Source: Thalassobaculum sp. OXR-137
GTDB taxonomy: Bacteria; Pseudomonadota; Alphaproteobacteria; Thalassobaculales; Thalassobaculaceae
NCBI RefSeq assembly: GCF_034377285.1
Contig: NZ_CP139715.1
Coordinates: 310,001 to 374,000, forward strand
Direction: 5' to 3'
Length of the DNA stretch: 64,000 bases
The translations under genes and the position numbers were made by a program. The notes under the pieces were generated by a model. It ran no database searches, had not been told where the DNA came from, and saw only the letters and a program-made list of their open reading frames with translations. The first letter of the stretch is position 1, and every line of letters begins with the position of its first letter. Shown piece after piece: positions 150 through 34,295 of this stretch.

Positions 150-1232
150 TTATTTGTAGCCGACCTCGTCGTAGAGCTTCTGCGCCAGCGGCTGGTTCTC
201 GCCGAGCTTGGCCAGGTTCATGGTGTCCTGGCGGAACAGGCCGAGCCGGGCGACCGACGCGCTGAGCTCGACGCCCGGAACCGCCGGGTATTCGTCGTTA
301 CCGGCCGAGAAATACGCCTGGGCGCTGTCGGAGGCGAGGTACTCCAGGAACTTGACGGCGTTCTCCTTGTTCGGCGCGGTGGCGACCACGCCGGCGCCGG
401 AGATGTTCACATGGGCGCCGGTGGTGCTCTGGTTCGGGAAGATCCAGCCGATCTTCGCGATCTCGGTCTCGCCCAGTCCCTTCACCTCGCTGCGCAGGGC
501 GCGGGCGAAGTAGTAGGTATTGGCCAGCGCCACGCCGCACTCGCCGGAGACGATGGCGCGCAGCTGGTCGGTGTCGCCGCCCTGGGGATCGCGGGCGCGG
601 TTCTCGTAGACGCCGGCGGCCCAGTCCTTGGCCCCCTGCTCGCCCTTGTGCTCGATCTGCGCGGCCATCAGCGACAGCATGTAGACGTTCGAGCTGGAGC
701 GCGTGCAGACCATGCCCTTCAGCGCCGGGTCGGCCAGATCGTCATAGGTCTGGATCTGCAGCGGCGAGACCCGGTCCTTGTCGTAGAAGATGATCCGGGC
801 GCGCTGGGAGAAGCCGTACCAGAGGCCGTCCGGATGCCGCAGATGGGACGGAATCCGCGCTTCCAGATACTCGGTGCTGACCGGCTGGAAGATGCCCATC
901 TGCTCGGCCCGCCAGATCCGGCCGGCATCGACGGTCAGCAGCACGTCGGCGGGGCTGTTGCGCCCTTCGCTCTTGATGCGCTGGATCAGCTCGTCGGCAT
1001 TGCCCTCGATCCGGTTGATCTTGATGCCGGTCTTTTCCTCGAACTCCGAATAGAGGCGCTCGTCGGTGTCGTAGTGGCGCGAGGAATAGAGGTTGAGCTC
1101 GCCGGCCGCCGATGCCGGGGCCACGAAGCTGCCGGCCGCCGCCAGGGCGATCGCCGCACTGGTCGCGATCCGCGCCAGCACCCCGGTCAGGCCCTTCGGT
1201 CCGCCGCGCCGGATTCCTCCCAAACGATTCAT
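150..1232 (-). CDS. Fe(3+) ABC transporter periplasmic binding protein (FutA/FbpA-like)
   Basis: 360-aa ferric iron binding protein of the FbpA/FutA/AfuA family, acting in the periplasm. The start at 1232 is chosen because AGGAG lies just upstream; an in-frame start further up (1349) would precede the signal peptide with a non-conserved leader. The N-terminus has a twin-arginine-poor, hydrophobic Sec signal ending ASA-AG, then the family opening NLYSSRHYDTD. The YY pair in ANTYYFARAL matches the tyrosine iron ligands of FbpA. No permease or ATPase gene is adjacent inside the window. An iron-box-like sequence lies about 95 nt upstream. The substrate is inferred from family and tyrosines. Confidence 0.88.
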   Translation of the reverse strand: MNRLGGIRRGGPKGLTGVLARIATSAAIALAAAGSFVAPASAAGELNLYSSRHYDTDERLYSEFEEKTGIKINRIEGNADELIQRIKSEGRNSPADVLLTVDAGRIWRAEQMGIFQPVSTEYLEARIPSHLRHPDGLWYGFSQRARIIFYDKDRVSPLQIQTYDDLADPALKGMVCTRSSSNVYMLSLMAAQIEHKGEQGAKDWAAGVYENRARDPQGGDTDQLRAIVSGECGVALANTYYFARALRSEVKGLGETEIAKIGWIFPNQSTTGAHVNISGAGVVATAPNKENAVKFLEYLASDSAQAYFSAGNDEYPAVPGVELSASVARLGLFRQDTMNLAKLGENQPLAQKLYDEVGYK

Positions 1233-8553: not shown

Positions 8554-8578
8554 CTGCGCCGTCATAACCCACGACCCT

Positions 8579-8780
8579 CGGGGGAGAGAGCGGCGGATCC
8601 GGCCGTATCTTGAACTTCCCCGGATCGCGGCGCCGCCGAAGGAGCAACCGCCCCCGGAAACTCTCAGGCGCCCGTACCCCGAGGTGAGGTGACTCTGGAG
8701 AGCGGGCGAGCGATCGCCCCACCGACGAGGAAAGCCGCAGCCCATCGCGGTCAATCTTTCAGGTCTCGGGACAGAGAGGG
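8579..8780 (+). ncRNA. Tandem glycine riboswitch
   Basis: Two glycine aptamers in series upstream of gcvT. Aptamer 1 shows GGGGAGAG (8581), GCCGCCGAAGGAGCAA (8631-8646) and AAACTCTCAGGC (8658-8669). The inter-aptamer link is GACTCTGGAGAG (8691-8702). Aptamer 2 ends with ATCTTTCAGGT (8753-8763) and GGACAGAGA (8769-8777). The order and spacing match the classical gcvT glycine element, which turns on glycine degradation when glycine is high. Between it and the start at 8830 a short hairpin (ACCGG/CCGGT, 8788-8801) could take part in the switch. Confidence 0.95.
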
Positions 8781-28296: not shown

Positions 28297-28917
28297 TCAG
28301 GTGAGCGGCAGGTCGATCCATTTCTTGAAGCCCTTGGTCGCCCGGCAGTTCTGCATCCAGGCGTCCAGGTTCGGCGTGGACGGCCGGTCCTTGACCAGGG
28401 TGACGAAGCGGTAGGCCTGGATGGCCACCGGGATGTCGGCCATGGTCAGGTTGTCGCCCATGATGAACTTCCGGCCCTCCAGCCGCCTGTCGAGAATGGC
28501 GTAGACCGAGTTGCCCTTCTCGATGGCGGCGCCGATCGCCGCCATGTCGCGGTCGGCCTCGGCGGTGCGCACCAGGCCCCAGAAGATCGGCGTCATGAAC
28601 GGCAGCACCGTGGTCTGCTGCCAGTCCATCCAGCGGTCCGCATCCGCGTAGTCCTGCGGGTCCGTCGGGCAGAGGGTGCCCTTGCCGTGCTTGGCGGCGA
28701 GATAGCGGGTGCAGGCGTTCGACTCCCACAGCACGAAATCGCCGTCGATGATCGTCGGCACCACGCTGTTCGGGTTCAGTTCGGTATAGGCCTTCTCCTT
28801 GGTCTTGCCGAACGGGCCGCCGTAATCCTCGCGCTCGAAGGGAACGCCCAGTTCCTCGCAGACCCACAGAACCTTCTGGACGTTGGCCGAATTCGCCCGA
28901 CCCAGGATCTTCAGCAT
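28297..28917 (-). CDS. Glutathione S-transferase family protein
   Basis: 206 aa with an N-terminal thioredoxin-like domain (MLKILGRANSANVQKVLWVC; cis-Pro in SVVPTI; ESNACTRYL glutathione-binding) and a helical C-terminal domain ending PLT. A Ser rather than Cys is near the N-terminal active-site position (RANSANV). AGGGAGAAGG precedes the ATG. It is the last gene of the strand that also carries pyrE and the liv-type genes, 25 nt from pyrE. Confidence 0.88.
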   Translation of the reverse strand: MLKILGRANSANVQKVLWVCEELGVPFEREDYGGPFGKTKEKAYTELNPNSVVPTIIDGDFVLWESNACTRYLAAKHGKGTLCPTDPQDYADADRWMDWQQTTVLPFMTPIFWGLVRTAEADRDMAAIGAAIEKGNSVYAILDRRLEGRKFIMGDNLTMADIPVAIQAYRFVTLVKDRPSTPNLDAWMQNCRATKGFKKWIDLPLT

Positions 28918-28942: not shown

Positions 28943-29629
28943 TTACGCCGTCACGGTGCGGTGGCGCGCGTCCCATTCTTCCGGATTGGCGAGAAACGCC
29001 CGGACCTCGGCAAGCTGCTCGGCGGAGTAGCCGTGCCGCTCGGCGACCGACAGCACGTCCCACCAGGTGCACAGGCCGTGCAGGTCCACGCCCTTCTCCT
29101 TGAGAGTGGTCACACTCTGCGGAAACACGCCGTAATGGAAGACCACAAAACAGTGAGCGACCTGCATCCCCGCCTCGCGGATCGCGTCGATGAAGGAGAT
29201 CTTGCTGCCGCCGTCGGTCGCCAGATCCTCCACCAGCAGGACCCGGGCGCCGTCGCGCACCTCGCCCTCGATCCGGGCGTTGCGGCCGAAGCCCTTGGGC
29301 TTCTTGCGCACATAGAGCATCGGCAGGTCGAGCGAGTCGGCCATCCAGGCGGCGAAGGGAATGCCCGCGGTCTCGCCGCCGGCCACCATGTCGAAGGCCT
29401 CGGCCCCGGCGAGCGCGGTGAGCTGCTCCACGCCCATCTCCATCAGCCGGCGCCGGGCGCGCGGGAAGGAGATGATCTTGCGGCAGTCCACATAGACCGG
29501 CGACAGGCGGCCGGAGGTGAAGGTGAACGGCTCCTCCGGGCGGATATGGATCGCCTGGATCTCCAGCAGGATGTCGGCGGCGGTCTGCGCGGGTGTACGA
29601 CGCCAGTCAGGCGAAAGGGTGCCGGTCAT
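28943..29629 (-). CDS. pyrE: Orotate phosphoribosyltransferase
   Basis: 228-aa OPRTase making orotidine 5'-phosphate in pyrimidine synthesis. The PRPP-binding loop is RVLLVEDLATDGGSK. FTFTSGRLSPVYVDCR and AGGETAGIPFAAW are family motifs. Start at 29629 has GCAGGAGATC upstream; a longer in-frame start would overlap the upstream ATPase gene. It lies 34 nt after that gene and may be read from the same transcript. Confidence 0.95.
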   Translation of the reverse strand: MTGTLSPDWRRTPAQTAADILLEIQAIHIRPEEPFTFTSGRLSPVYVDCRKIISFPRARRRLMEMGVEQLTALAGAEAFDMVAGGETAGIPFAAWMADSLDLPMLYVRKKPKGFGRNARIEGEVRDGARVLLVEDLATDGGSKISFIDAIREAGMQVAHCFVVFHYGVFPQSVTTLKEKGVDLHGLCTWWDVLSVAERHGYSAEQLAEVRAFLANPEEWDARHRTVTA

Positions 29630-29663: not shown

Positions 29664-30383
29664 TTACGCGCGCTCCGAACCAGCGTCCAGCATGGCGGAT
29701 GCGACCACGCCCGCGTCGATGCGCTCGGCCGGCACATCCAGCACCACCACGCCCCGGCGCAGCACGATGGCCCGGTCGGCGACCGCCAGCGCCCGGGGTA
29801 CGGCCTGCTCCGCCAGCACGACCGCCACCCCCGACTCGGCGAGGCCGCGGATGGCGGCGAAGACGTCGTCCAGCACCACCGGCGCCAGGCCGATGGACGG
29901 CTCGTCCAGCAGGATGACCGTCGGCTCGGCGATCACGGCGCGGGCGATGGCGAGCATCTGCTGCTGCCCCCCGGACAGGGTCCAGGCCAGGGCGTCCCGG
30001 CGCTCCGCCAGAACAGGGAACAGGGCGCAGACCCGGTCGAACGCCTTTGCGCGCGCCGCCGCCGGACCGACCGCGGCGACGTCCAGGGTCTCGGCCACGG
30101 TCAGACCGGGGAACAGCCGCCGCCCTTCCGGGCACCAGCCGATGCCGGCGCGCACCCGCTGTTCCAGCCGCAGGTGGGTGACGTCCCTGCCGTCGACCCT
30201 GATCGCGCCGGCGGTCACCGGGTCGGCGCCGGCCACGGCGCGGATCAGGCTCGACTTGCCCGCGCCGTTCGCCCCCATGACCGCGACCACCTCGCCGGCC
30301 CCGCAGGAGAAGCTGGCCTGATCGACCGCCACGCCCTCGGCATGGGTCACCGTCAGCCCGTCCAGTTCCAGGCGCTGGGTCAT
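29664..30383 (-). CDS. ABC transporter ATP-binding protein, LivF-type
   Basis: 239-aa ATPase of the branched-chain amino acid (HAAT) importer class. Walker A MGANGAGKSSLI, signature LSGGQQQMLAIARA, Walker B VILLDEPSIGLAP. Its ATG overlaps the stop of the fused permease-ATPase gene as TGATG. Part of the TPP-riboswitch operon, so the cargo is predicted to be thiamine-related, not a branched-chain amino acid. Confidence 0.9.
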   Translation of the reverse strand: MTQRLELDGLTVTHAEGVAVDQASFSCGAGEVVAVMGANGAGKSSLIRAVAGADPVTAGAIRVDGRDVTHLRLEQRVRAGIGWCPEGRRLFPGLTVAETLDVAAVGPAAARAKAFDRVCALFPVLAERRDALAWTLSGGQQQMLAIARAVIAEPTVILLDEPSIGLAPVVLDDVFAAIRGLAESGVAVVLAEQAVPRALAVADRAIVLRRGVVVLDVPAERIDAGVVASAMLDAGSERA

Positions 30384-32041
30384 CAGGCGGCCTCTTCCCC
30401 GAGGTACGCGGCGACCACGGCCGGATCGGCGCGCACGGCATCGGTCAATCCGGCGGCCAGCACCCGGCCCGCATCCAGGCAGACCAGCCGGTCGGCGATC
30501 GGCAGCAGGAAGTCCATGCCGTGCTCGACCACCACCACCGCCATCCCGTCCCCCGCGAGATCGCGCAGCAGCCGGGCGAGGTCGGCCCGCTCCGACGCGC
30601 TCAGCCCCGAGGCCGGTTCGTCCAGCAGCAGGACGGTGGGGCCCGTGGCCAGCGCCCGGGCGATGTCCAGGCGCCGCCGGTCGGCCGGACCCAGGGACGC
30701 TGTGGCGGCGCGCGCCTTGTGCGCCAGTCCGACCCGCTCCAGCGCGGCCATGCCGGCGGCGGCCGGAGCGGCGGCGGAGACCGCCGCCAGCACGTCGACC
30801 CCGTCGGGGATCTCCGGATGCTGGAAGCCCCGGGCGAGGCCCAGGGCGGCGCGGGCGCGGGGCGGCTGGGCCAGCAGCGGGATGGCATCCAGCCGGACGA
30901 TCCCGCCATCGGCGCTCTCCAGCCCGGTGACGATGTTGAGCAGGGTGGTCTTGCCGGATCCGTTGGCGCCGATGATGCCGGTCACCTCGCCGGCGCGGGC
31001 GTCGAATCCGGCCCCGTCCAGCGCCTGAACCCCGCCGAACCGCTTGGTCAGCTTCTCGGCGCGCAGCACCGAGATCTTGCGGCCCTTGGCCCGCAGCGGC
31101 TGCGGCACCGGTCCGGGCAGGTCGGGCAGGACCTTTGCCAGCAGCCCATCGATCCCGCGCGGCAGCAGGATCACCGCGGCCAGCAGCACGACGCCATAGG
31201 CCAGCAGATAGGCCTGCTCCAGCCCGCGGAACACCTCCGGCAGCGGCACCAGCAGGACCGAGCCGACGACCGCGCCCCACGCACTGCCCCGGCCGCCGAC
31301 CACGGCGATCGCCAGCAGGGTGACCATGACGTCGAACCGGGCGACGGCGGGAGAGACGACGCCGAGGCCGAGAGCCTGGAACCCGCCGGCGAACCCGGCC
31401 AGCGCGCCGGCGACGGCGAAGACCAGCAGCCGGGCGCCGACCGGGTCGAGGCCCAGGGCGATTGCGGTCAGCGGCGCATCGCGCAGGGTCGCTAGCCGCG
31501 CGGCCCTCCCGGATGCGGTCACCCACCAGAAGATTCCGAGCGCCAGCGCCACGCCGCCCCAGACCACCGCGAGCAGGCGCCAGCCGCCGCCGAGGTCGAG
31601 GCCGAGCACCGTCAGCGGCGGGATGCCATACATCCCGTTCGCCCCGCCGGTGACCTCCAGATTGGTCACGGCGAGCAGGACGAGCTGGGCCAGACCGAGG
31701 GTGGCCAGCGCCACGTAATGGGACTCTAGCCGGGCGATGGGGATCGCGACCAGCGCGCCGGCCAGAGCCGGCACCACGATCGACAGGCCGAGCCCGGCCA
31801 GCGGCGGCCAGCCCCAGCTCACGGTCGCCAGCGCCAGGGCATAGGCGCCGACGGCGAACAGCGCGCCCTGGCTCAGCGCCAGCAGCCCGAGCCGTCCGAA
31901 GACGAGCTGGAAGCCGATCGCGGCGATGGCGTAGGTTCCGGCCAGGGTGGCGATCCGCAGGGCGTAATCGTCCCCGGCGCCGATCAGGGCACCGCCCGCC
32001 GCCAGCAGCAGCACGGCGTAGACAAGGCTGCGTCTGTTCAC
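30383..32041 (-). CDS. Fused LivM-type permease and LivG-type ATPase
   Basis: 552-aa fusion. Residues 1 to about 300 are a LivM permease with about 8 to 10 membrane spans (LVFGRLGLLALSQGALFAVG; VVGGRGSAWGAVVGS). Residues about 325-552 are a LivG ATPase: Walker A IGANGSGKTTLLN, signature LGPADRRRLDIARAL, in which the usual SGGQ is replaced, and Walker B VLLLDEPASGLS. The GTG start lies 21 nt after the LivH-type gene. The fusion is known in some HAAT systems but separate genes are usual. Part of the TPP operon. Confidence 0.88.
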   Translation of the reverse strand: MNRRSLVYAVLLLAAGGALIGAGDDYALRIATLAGTYAIAAIGFQLVFGRLGLLALSQGALFAVGAYALALATVSWGWPPLAGLGLSIVVPALAGALVAIPIARLESHYVALATLGLAQLVLLAVTNLEVTGGANGMYGIPPLTVLGLDLGGGWRLLAVVWGGVALALGIFWWVTASGRAARLATLRDAPLTAIALGLDPVGARLLVFAVAGALAGFAGGFQALGLGVVSPAVARFDVMVTLLAIAVVGGRGSAWGAVVGSVLLVPLPEVFRGLEQAYLLAYGVVLLAAVILLPRGIDGLLAKVLPDLPGPVPQPLRAKGRKISVLRAEKLTKRFGGVQALDGAGFDARAGEVTGIIGANGSGKTTLLNIVTGLESADGGIVRLDAIPLLAQPPRARAALGLARGFQHPEIPDGVDVLAAVSAAAPAAAGMAALERVGLAHKARAATASLGPADRRRLDIARALATGPTVLLLDEPASGLSASERADLARLLRDLAGDGMAVVVVEHGMDFLLPIADRLVCLDAGRVLAAGLTDAVRADPAVVAAYLGEEAA

Positions 32042-32062
32042 TCCACCCTCACTGCGGACCGT

Positions 32063-32953
32063 TCATGCCCGGCGCCCCTCGGCCTCGCCGAAGAGACCCT
32101 GGGGACGCAGCATGAGCAGGACCAGCACCCCGAGATAAAGCATCGCTTCGGCCACCAGATAGGAGACCGCGGCGGCGACCATCACCTCGAACACGGCGAT
32201 CAGCAGCGCGGCGAGTGCCGCTCCCCAGATCCGGCCCCAGCCGCCGACCACCACGGCGATATACGCCTTCAGCATGAAACCCGCGCCGTCGGTCGGCGTC
32301 ACGAAATACTGGTTGGACAGCAGCAACCCCGCGCCGCCGGCCAGCGCCCCGGCCAGAGCGAAGGTGGCGCCGATTGTGATCCGCAGGTCGATGCCGCAGG
32401 CCCTGGCCATTTCCGGATCCTGCGCCGCCGCCCGCAGCCGCCGGCCGAACCGGGTCCGGTGCAGCAGAATGTGGACCGCCGCGCAGAGCACGCCCGCCAC
32501 GGCGATGGTCGCGAGCTGCTGGTAGGACAGCGCCGCGCCCAGCAGTTCGACCATGCCGCCCCCCACCAGCGGAGGACCGACACGGGGCTGCGGCCCGGCA
32601 CCCAGCGCGATCGCGTGCTGCAGGATCAGGCCCACGGCGATGGTCGAGATGAACACCGAGACCGGCGGCGCCCGGCGCAAGGGCACGTAGGCGACCGCCG
32701 CCAGCAGCACGCCGCCGGCCGCCATCGCGGCCAGGACCGCCGGCAACAGGATCAGCCCCGGAACCGGCAGGCCGTCCGGCAGGAGACTCGCCAGCGCGAC
32801 TGCCGCGAATCCGCCGGCCATCACCAGGTCGCCATGGGCGAAATTAACCGCACCCACGGCATTGATGATCAGCACAAAACCTAATGCTGTCAGCGCGTAA
32901 GCCGAGCCGAGCGCGAGCGCCGTCGCAAGCAATTGGAGAGCCGTTTCCACCAT
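32063..32953 (-). CDS. ABC transporter permease, LivH-type
   Basis: 296-aa inner-membrane permease with about 8 spans. LGFVLIINAVGAVNFAHGDL is the LivH signature near the N-terminus, and VVGGWGRIWGAALAALLI is the C-terminal coupling region. It follows the binding protein by 27 nt. Belongs to the TPP-riboswitch operon. Confidence 0.92.
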   Translation of the reverse strand: MVETALQLLATALALGSAYALTALGFVLIINAVGAVNFAHGDLVMAGGFAAVALASLLPDGLPVPGLILLPAVLAAMAAGGVLLAAVAYVPLRRAPPVSVFISTIAVGLILQHAIALGAGPQPRVGPPLVGGGMVELLGAALSYQQLATIAVAGVLCAAVHILLHRTRFGRRLRAAAQDPEMARACGIDLRITIGATFALAGALAGGAGLLLSNQYFVTPTDGAGFMLKAYIAVVVGGWGRIWGAALAALLIAVFEVMVAAAVSYLVAEAMLYLGVLVLLMLRPQGLFGEAEGRRA

Positions 32954-32980
32954 GCCCGCATTATATCAGCGAGAACCGGG

Positions 32981-34126
32981 TCAGCGGATACCGTCGACGT
33001 TGTCGTAGCGCTTCTTCACCGACGGCACCCGCGTCTGCCCGTCGTAGCACAGGATGATGGCGTCATGGGCCATGTTGCCGGTGCCGTCGGAGACATACTC
33101 CATGGCGAGCCCTTGGTAGCGGTGCCCGGCGAGCCAGTCCCTGACCTGGGAGGCGGTGCGCGCCCCGTCGGCGAGCGCCGCCAGCACCATGTTCATGCCG
33201 TCATACTGCGCCAGCGCGAAGGCGTCGGGCTCGGCCTGAAAGCGGGCGCGGTAGGCCTTGGCGAAGGCGGCGATCTCCGGCGTGCTTTCGGAGATCGGCG
33301 AGGACGCGCTTTCGGCGCAGACGCCGGCCAGGGCGGCGGGCTCGACCAGGGCGGCGGTGGTCGGCTGGTGCAGGGCCGAGCCCGCGACGATCTTGCCGGC
33401 GAAGCCGCGCTCATGGGCCTGGCGCACGGCGAGCGCGGTGGGGCCTGAGTGGAGCTGCAGCAGGATACCGTCCGCCCCGGCCGCCGCCACCCGCTCCAGG
33501 GCGGGCACGAAGTCCTTCACGCCCGGATCGACGGCTTCCTCCAGCACCGGCTCGACGCCGAGTTCCGCCAGGACGCGGACCAGCTCGGCATGGCCGCTCT
33601 GGCCGTAGGCGGTGGTCTGGTACAGGATCGCCGGCTTCTCCATGCCGAGCTCCTCGACCGCATAGCGGGCCTGGGCAACCTTCACCACCGCGTCGGTCGG
33701 GAAGAAGCGGAACACCACGTCGTAGCCGAGTTCGGTCAGCTTGGCGGTGCCGGACACGGTGATCAGCGGCACGTCGGCCCGGTCGGCGATCGGCGCCATG
33801 GCGAGCATCTGGGTGCCAAAGATCGGCGCGGCGATGGCGACCGGATTCTGCCGGTCCAGCGCCCGGCGCAGGGCGGTGACGGCGACTTCCGGCGAGGTGG
33901 CGGTGTCGGCCACGTCATAGGCGACGGCGACCCCGTCCGGCGGATTGTCCAGGGCCAGGACGGCACCGTTGCGCTGAGCGGTGCCCTCCAGCGCCAGAAA
34001 GCCGGTGATCGGCACCAGCACGGAAACCGCAAGCGGATCGTCGGCCCGGGCGGTCTGCGCGGCACCGGCCAGGATCGCGGCGGCGGCACCGAGACTCGCG
34101 AGGGAACGGGCAAAAGGCAAAGGCAT
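32981..34126 (-). CDS. Periplasmic binding protein of a Liv-type ABC importer under a TPP riboswitch
   Basis: 381-aa type I periplasmic binding protein of the leucine/isoleucine/valine-binding class. The signal peptide ends TARA-DD. LAVSVLVPITGFLALEGTA is the N-terminal lobe start and EIAAFAKAYRARFQAEPDAFAL the C-terminal lobe. CGAGGAGTGAG lies before the ATG. About 80 nt upstream is a TPP riboswitch on the same strand, which makes thiamine, HMP or a degradation product the predicted ligand. Amino-acid contacts used by LivJ are not obviously conserved, but I cannot align it. Confidence 0.85.
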   Translation of the reverse strand: MPLPFARSLASLGAAAAILAGAAQTARADDPLAVSVLVPITGFLALEGTAQRNGAVLALDNPPDGVAVAYDVADTATSPEVAVTALRRALDRQNPVAIAAPIFGTQMLAMAPIADRADVPLITVSGTAKLTELGYDVVFRFFPTDAVVKVAQARYAVEELGMEKPAILYQTTAYGQSGHAELVRVLAELGVEPVLEEAVDPGVKDFVPALERVAAAGADGILLQLHSGPTALAVRQAHERGFAGKIVAGSALHQPTTAALVEPAALAGVCAESASSPISESTPEIAAFAKAYRARFQAEPDAFALAQYDGMNMVLAALADGARTASQVRDWLAGHRYQGLAMEYVSDGTGNMAHDAIILCYDGQTRVPSVKKRYDNVDGIR

Positions 34127-34204
34127 GGCGTCTCACTCCTCGGGACGGCTTTCCGGGGGAGGGACCGAGCGTTCGGCGTTCTCGAAGGAGGGCAATCGAC
34201 AAGC

Positions 34205-34295
34205 GCCGTGACGACTCCCTCCGCCGGCGCGACCCGGTTCAGGTTCGATGGGTTTGATCTCAGCCCCCGTCGGGAGGCACCCCAGCATCACCCCG
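34205..34295 (-). ncRNA. TPP (THI-element) riboswitch
   Basis: On the minus strand the order is GGGGTGCC (34285-34278), GGGGGCTGAGATC, AAACCC, GAACCTGAACC, GGGTCGCGCCGGCG and GGAGGGAGTC (to 34211). These are the conserved THI-box blocks, with CTGAGA, GAACCTGA and the CCGG...GCCGGCG stem. It precedes the Liv-type binding protein gene. A stretch TCCCTCC at about 34158-34164 (minus strand) could pair with GGAGGGA to form an alternative structure. Confidence 0.93.

Follow-up and report, generated by a model that had tools for sequence, protein, structure and literature searches.

A TPP riboswitch-linked Liv-type transporter operon in Alphaproteobacteria, a candidate importer for the thiazole half of thiamine

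The available parts of two published lists of thiamine pyrophosphate (TPP)-linked or vitamin B1 uptake systems name ThiT, ThiBPQ, PnuT, ThiV, ThiXYZ, YkoEDC, CytX, ThiW, ThiU, omr1, and ThiPerm (PMC6593275, PMC10881298). The uptake of the thiazole half of thiamine is an acknowledged gap (PMC5899164; PMC6593275). Escherichia coli ΔthiG grows on sub-picomolar concentrations of the 2-carboxylate (cHET) of hydroxyethylthiazole (HET) (PMC5899164). ThiW, the gene of which can carry a TPP riboswitch (PMC6478431), was found in just 64% of the HET auxotrophs of a gut survey, and the remaining importers are unaccounted for (PMC6593275). The first-pass annotation of the DNA studied here knew of no branched-chain importer among the TPP-controlled uptake systems, and the parts of the lists cited above contain no transporter of the HAAT (Liv, branched-chain amino acid) type. 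This DNA, a 64,000-nucleotide stretch of the 5.65-Mb genome of Thalassobaculum sp. OXR-137 (the window), carries a Liv-type ATP-binding cassette (ABC) transporter operon behind a TPP riboswitch. The arrangement consists of the following features:

34198..34294, minus strand: TPP riboswitch aptamer (THI element, RF00059); cmscan score of 57.0 bits against a gathering score of 54.3, with lineage-model matches in orthologs
34136..34140, minus strand: likely Shine-Dalgarno sequence AGGAG of the binding protein gene, 9 nt before the ATG at 34126
32981..34126, minus strand: type I periplasmic binding protein (SBP), 381 aa, with a signal peptide; Pfam PF13458 (Peripla_BP_6), 6e-49
32063..32953, minus strand: LivH-type permease; PF02653 (BPD_transp_2), 9e-37
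30383..32041, minus strand: LivM permease–LivG ATPase fusion in a single 552-aa frame; PF02653, PF00005 (ABC_tran), and PF12399 (BCA_ABC_TP_C)
29664..30383, minus strand: LivF-type ATPase; PF00005, 1.4e-30; its start overlaps the LivMG stop (TGATG)

The RF00059 match (E = 1.6e-8) spans model positions 1–105, that is, the full length. The aptamer core motifs CTGAGA (34263-34258), GAACCTGA (34246-34239), and GCGGAGGGA (34224-34216) are present, and a P1 helix can be read as GUGAUG/CGUCAC (34291-34286 / 34213-34208). The aptamer ends 71 nt before the start of the SBP gene. The gaps are 27 nt between SBP and LivH and 21 nt between LivH and LivMG, followed by the stop/start overlap with LivF. These results confirmed the riboswitch and the tight succession of Liv genes behind it, both of which the first-pass annotation had read from the letters. 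The operon has the HAAT architecture: a type I SBP, two BPD_transp_2 domains, and two Liv-type ATPase domains. The fold stability of the leader showed no gain over shuffled sequences (z = 0.21 and 0.47), and a terminator scan found no terminator in it. By analogy with characterized TPP riboswitches, TPP would repress the expression of SBP–LivH–LivMG–LivF.

Conservation was followed in a class sample of 385 genomes and in a second collection of 80 loci with organism names, which partly repeats genomes of the class sample. A lineage riboswitch model (R1) was built on sites including 17 of the Liv-linked riboswitches, on which it scores by construction; the independent test of the linkage is the set of RF00059 matches. 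One clear SBP ortholog was present in 31 of the 385 class genomes, with 44–91% identity in the alignment. Outside the window's family, RF00059 exceeded its gathering score directly upstream of 17 of 28 orthologs. R1 matched upstream of three more (L124, L126, L128), which brings the riboswitch-linked orthologs to 20/28. In the named collection, a single R1 match stood just upstream of the SBP gene in 72 of the 80 loci; two of the eight unmatched loci start inside or at the gene, leaving 72/78 with upstream DNA (~92%). The named hosts include Thalassobaculum, Nisaea, Azospirillum, Skermanella, and SAR116, the closest being Thalassobaculum litoreum (91% SBP identity). LivH and the LivMG fusion accompany the SBP in 100 of 108 loci. 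Even orthologs with only about 50% protein identity keep the linkage, although their genomic surroundings are unrelated and no thi genes adjoin the operon. The whole genome of the window contains only three TPP riboswitches, the other two lying upstream of ThiX–ThiY and of ThiM. This rarity, together with the recurrence in orthologous loci, indicates that the arrangement is not a product of chance. Judged from these comparisons, the pairing is old.

The Liv-linked riboswitches form a sequence subclass, in which the P3a arm is almost lost, with few nucleotides between CTGAGA and ACCC. This was seen in an alignment (A3) of the window site and the sites of loci L121–L147. The ThiX, ThiC, and ThiM riboswitch sites of the same genomes differ from this subclass. 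Such a distinct subclass suggests a long vertical descent together with the Liv operon. Three SBP orthologs (L145, L146, and L148, in genomes G226, G220, and G390) have no riboswitch, and in L146 and L148 the SBP stands alone, without LivHMGF, in genomes that contain ThiG. These orthologs possibly have a different function.

The presence of the riboswitch-linked operon went together with the loss of thiazole synthesis. Among the class genomes with ThiE, ThiG was absent from 19 of the 22 with a riboswitch-linked Liv operon, from 2 of the 8 with an unlinked one, and from 56 of the 230 without Liv. Compared with the genomes without Liv, Fisher's test gave p = 1.2e-8 for the linked carriers and p = 1.0 for the unlinked ones, which resembled the background; none of the p-values given here takes account of the relatedness of the genomes. 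In a set of 80 genomes, ThiG was present in 3/35 linked carriers vs 21/29 genomes without Liv (p = 2e-7). ThiC showed no association (8/35 vs 9/29, p = 0.57). Among the ThiC-containing genomes of this set, 7 of the 9 with linked Liv had no ThiG, vs none of the 9 without Liv, and ThiC without ThiG was met solely together with Liv. At least three families (f1, f81, f103) showed the contrast between Liv-positive, ThiG-negative and Liv-negative, ThiG-positive genomes, and a by-family comparison revealed no reverse contrast among riboswitch-linked carriers. Nearly all carriers retain ThiE. The Liv genomes that have ThiC and no ThiG all retain ThiE, except for one incomplete metagenome-assembled genome (MAG). 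They make the pyrimidine half, and none of the known thiazole sources searched for (ThiG, Thi4) was found in them. For the Thi4-type synthase, considered as a hidden source, PF01946 yielded Rossmann-motif noise only. The first-pass annotation had proposed a candidate new Liv/HAAT-type thiamine-related importer, the orthologs of which should be riboswitch-linked and the hosts of which should be short of de novo thiamine genes. As far as sequence goes, this proposal passed every computable check that came with it: RF00059 scores in the interval, the linkage recurs in the named loci at the share given above, and most carriers lack part of the pathway.

Liv tracks the loss of ThiG and not that of ThiC, which makes the thiazole half the best-supported cargo. 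We propose, with a probability of just under 0.6, that the operon encodes a TPP-repressed HAAT importer of HET, cHET, or a phosphate of either (HET-P, cHET-P). When TPP is scarce, the empty aptamer would permit expression of SBP–LivH–LivMG–LivF. The periplasmic SBP would capture the thiazole, and the LivH/LivM permease pair with the LivG/LivF ATPases would move it inward. ThiE would then join it with hydroxymethylpyrimidine (HMP) pyrophosphate, which ThiC or salvage through ThiXY/TenA provides, and the resulting thiamine phosphate would be converted to TPP. We infer import rather than export from the binding-protein architecture; the repression and the cargo are likewise predicted. A thiazole importer is expected to be TPP riboswitch-linked in genomes that keep ThiE without thiazole synthesis, and this is what was found, the three ThiG-containing exceptions aside.

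Several observations weigh against this assignment. One concerns ThiM, to our knowledge the sole HET kinase. The TPP-controlled ThiM in the genome of the window speaks for a thiazole cargo, but this companion, expected for a thiazole importer, occurs in only 4 of the 36 riboswitch-linked carriers (4/16 in the window's family, its own genome included, and 0/20 elsewhere). ThiM was found in 28 of the 56 genomes with ThiE and without ThiG or Liv. HET itself as cargo would need another kinase where ThiM is missing. The scarcity of ThiM implies an unfamiliar kinase, a cargo that is already phosphorylated, or thiamine phosphate as the cargo. The genes between LivF and pyrE, tried as the place of an operon-borne kinase, are variable, and none appears kinase-like by eye; ThiE was located with tkt–gap–fba. 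Furthermore, the linked carriers with ThiC and without ThiG represent only some three lineages: Nisaea, a second genus, and the incomplete MAG. A tree-based paired test of riboswitch vs ThiG within the Liv carriers yielded five pairs, too few to decide. The three linked carriers of the class sample that have ThiG (3/22), two of which belong to family f52, weaken the thiazole case and do not break it, since importers are common in prototrophs (PMC3766115). Finally, the thiazole reading does not account for the linkage of the operon to pyrE, described below. Tentatively, a HAAT importer specialized for HET-P, cHET, or cHET-P, feeding ThiE without ThiM, might constitute a thiazole-salvage route in Alphaproteobacteria; we regard this narrower version as possible, although doubtful.

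The strongest rival is the import of intact thiamine or of its mono- or pyrophosphate (TMP, TPP), as by ThiBPQ, which would make thiazole synthesis dispensable. This would explain the riboswitch and the ThiG loss without ThiM, which most carriers lack, and no class-level genome with Liv and without ThiG has a ThiB above its cut-off. However, almost every carrier has ThiE, and 9 of the 36 linked ones have ThiC; both would be pointless if whole thiamine were imported. Thiamine pyrophosphokinase (TPK), considered as a thiamine-salvage route, is absent from all carriers, so another kinase would be needed; this counts against plain thiamine. In addition, TPP-linked ThiBPQ and TPP-linked Liv stand side by side in two genomes (G008, G027). 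We regard this reading as unlikely, while it is a serious contender.

Further evidence on the cargo came from the TPP regulon of the window's family (f1) and from the slot before the two genes that follow the operon:

28943..29629, minus strand: pyrE, orotate phosphoribosyltransferase, the next gene downstream; NCBIfam NF001729, 1e-103, above the cut-off, and synteny
28297..28917, minus strand: glutathione S-transferase (GST)-like gene after pyrE, a marker of the syntenic slot; Pfam GST_N/GST_C and synteny

In family genomes with several riboswitch sites, the regulon proved to be modular. It combines a pyrimidine module (ThiC, ThiXY, or ThiY–TenA) or ThiBPQ with either Liv or thiO–thiG. No family genome has both Liv and thiO–thiG under TPP riboswitches. 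In three low-GC genomes (g9), riboswitch–thiO–thiG–thiE–pyrE–GST occupies the slot that holds riboswitch–Liv–pyrE–GST elsewhere. Two g9 loci (L077, L084) have a TPP riboswitch before ThiY–TenA–ThiZ–ThiX, a complete pyrimidine salvage cassette, in relatives that retain thiO–thiG–thiE. Two one-contig 1.5-Mb genomes (G001, G005), which bear the genus label of the 5.6-Mb genome of the window, contain ThiE and ThiM, and neither ThiG nor a riboswitch match nor Liv was found in them.

The first-pass annotation had guessed at thiamine, HMP, a formylaminopyrimidine (FAMP), or another salvage product. Import of the pyrimidine half (HMP, FAMP, or the aminomethylpyrimidine AmMP) would agree with the absence of ThiC from many carriers and with the wide occurrence of TPP-linked pyrimidine importers. 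However, most of the Liv-carrying family genomes have TPP-linked ThiXY or ThiY for pyrimidine uptake, four Nisaea genomes also have ThiC, and the presence of Liv showed no link to ThiC loss. Because ThiC, ThiXY, or TenA supply this half and Liv tracks ThiG, HMP and FAMP are disfavored, and we consider a pyrimidine cargo improbable. The wording "another salvage product" covers the thiazole, the best-supported candidate, and thiamine keeps the smaller chance given above. The pyrE linkage was also examined as a hint of a pyrimidine cargo and rejected. Of 108 loci, 36 from several families (the window, L123–L128, L139, L145–L147, L161–L174, and others) have the gene downstream of Liv, and it also follows thiO–thiG–thiE in the g9 genomes. 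Orotate is unrelated to HMP chemistry. Since pyrE stands behind both cassettes, we treat it as a slot marker; it is probably a neighbor outside the transporter, and it may be co-transcribed with the TPP-riboswitch operons.

A conventional HAAT importer of amino acids or aromatic acids, placed under the riboswitch for some purpose unrelated to the supply of thiamine parts, was weighed against the structure of the SBP. The AlphaFold model (mean pLDDT, the per-residue confidence score, 93.3) gave its best fold matches with LivJ/LivK, AmiC, and aromatic-acid binders (Z = 41–44; 44.1 for LivJ 4gnr and 43.7 for LivK 3td9). Fold and sequence relatives thus bind amino acids, amides, and aromatic acids. 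However, 3td9 and 4gnr, which bind amino acids, have at the site aligned with Ser250 the Asp that holds the ligand ammonium. An Anabaena protein has Asn at this site with a bound keto acid (4obb), and Asp in its valine-binding mutant N280D (4nv3). Ser250 is present in 39 of 40 orthologs, His226 and His253 are almost invariant, and Gly104 is invariant. Gly104 presumably corresponds to LivJ Ser79 and His226 to LivJ Tyr202, an equivalence drawn from a hand alignment that we used as a lead only. By alignment, the SBP has lost the acid that amino-acid binders use for the ligand ammonium. This change argues against α-amino acids and is compatible with acids, heterocycles, and phosphates. Riboswitch linkage across many families and the swap with thiO–thiG–thiE also speak against an ordinary importer, which we think has little chance of being correct. 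A riboswitch left over from an earlier thiO–thiG–thiE operon, with a transporter that has no present role in thiamine supply, would fit the slot occupied by these genes in some relatives, and is very improbable given a linkage that persists to such low protein identity in unrelated contexts without adjoining thi genes.

A tandem glycine riboswitch at 8571-8776 of the window (plus strand; 58.1 and 44.1 bits) precedes gcvT and, further on, gcvP, an ordinary arrangement. The binding protein at ~225-1106 (minus strand) reached 61 bits against a ThiB cut-off of 93.4 and looks by sequence like an iron(III) binding protein rather than ThiB.

Text searches found no publication combining THI or TPP control with HAAT transporters; RegPrecise tables and supplements lay outside their scope, so that an annotation held in a database only is possible. 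Among the portions available, the main text of a TPP-regulon survey of 255 genomes (PMC3766115) has no words for branched-chain or thiazole transporters, and HAAT systems are likewise missing from two papers on B1 in aquatic settings. TPP-controlled vitamin importers are already known; the new part would be vitamer uptake under TPP control by a transporter of the HAAT type, a family not known in this use. If the thiazole assignment holds, it would explain B1 acquisition by many alphaproteobacteria, SAR116, Nisaea, and Thalassobaculum among them, and would correct the present annotation, which makes these genes transporters of branched-chain amino acids. Genomes of the Nisaea type, with ThiC and no ThiG, would then belong to obligate thiazole consumers.

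Compared with known systems, the operon shares its domain architecture, Pfam families, and SBP fold with HAAT/Liv (LivJ/K–HMGF). It differs in the LivM–LivG fusion, in Ser250 replacing the acid, and in TPP-riboswitch control, and the operon proteins stay below the cut-offs of all NCBIfam Liv models. In NCBIfam, LivH, LivG, and LivF score best with models of the urea transporter UrtABCDE, but these scores reach only some 50 to 70% of the UrtB, UrtD, and UrtE equivalog cut-offs (142.5 vs 250.3, 150.6 vs 304.1, and 196.3 vs 285.8 bits). ThiXYZ is likewise a TPP-controlled ABC importer of the same genomes, but it has an unrelated NMT1/THI5-type SBP and serves the other half of thiamine. ThiBPQ (thiamine/TMP/TPP) is also TPP-controlled and co-occurs in G008 and G027, where a gene of its own, from another SBP family, encodes the true ThiB; TIGR01254 (ThiB) gave no NCBIfam hit on the operon SBP, which matches PF13458. 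With ThiW/ThiU, the predicted HET importers of gut bacteria (PMC6593275), the operon would share the cargo HET and the occurrence in HET auxotrophs, whereas all Pfam and NCBIfam matches of its proteins are to families of the HAAT type. The high-affinity cHET uptake of E. coli is the physiological activity to be expected of such a transporter, although the transport systems there are of unknown sequence identity (Paerl et al., PMC5899164). If its cargo is HET-P, cHET, or cHET-P, the operon would provide a sequence for a thiazole transporter of the sort described by Paerl et al.

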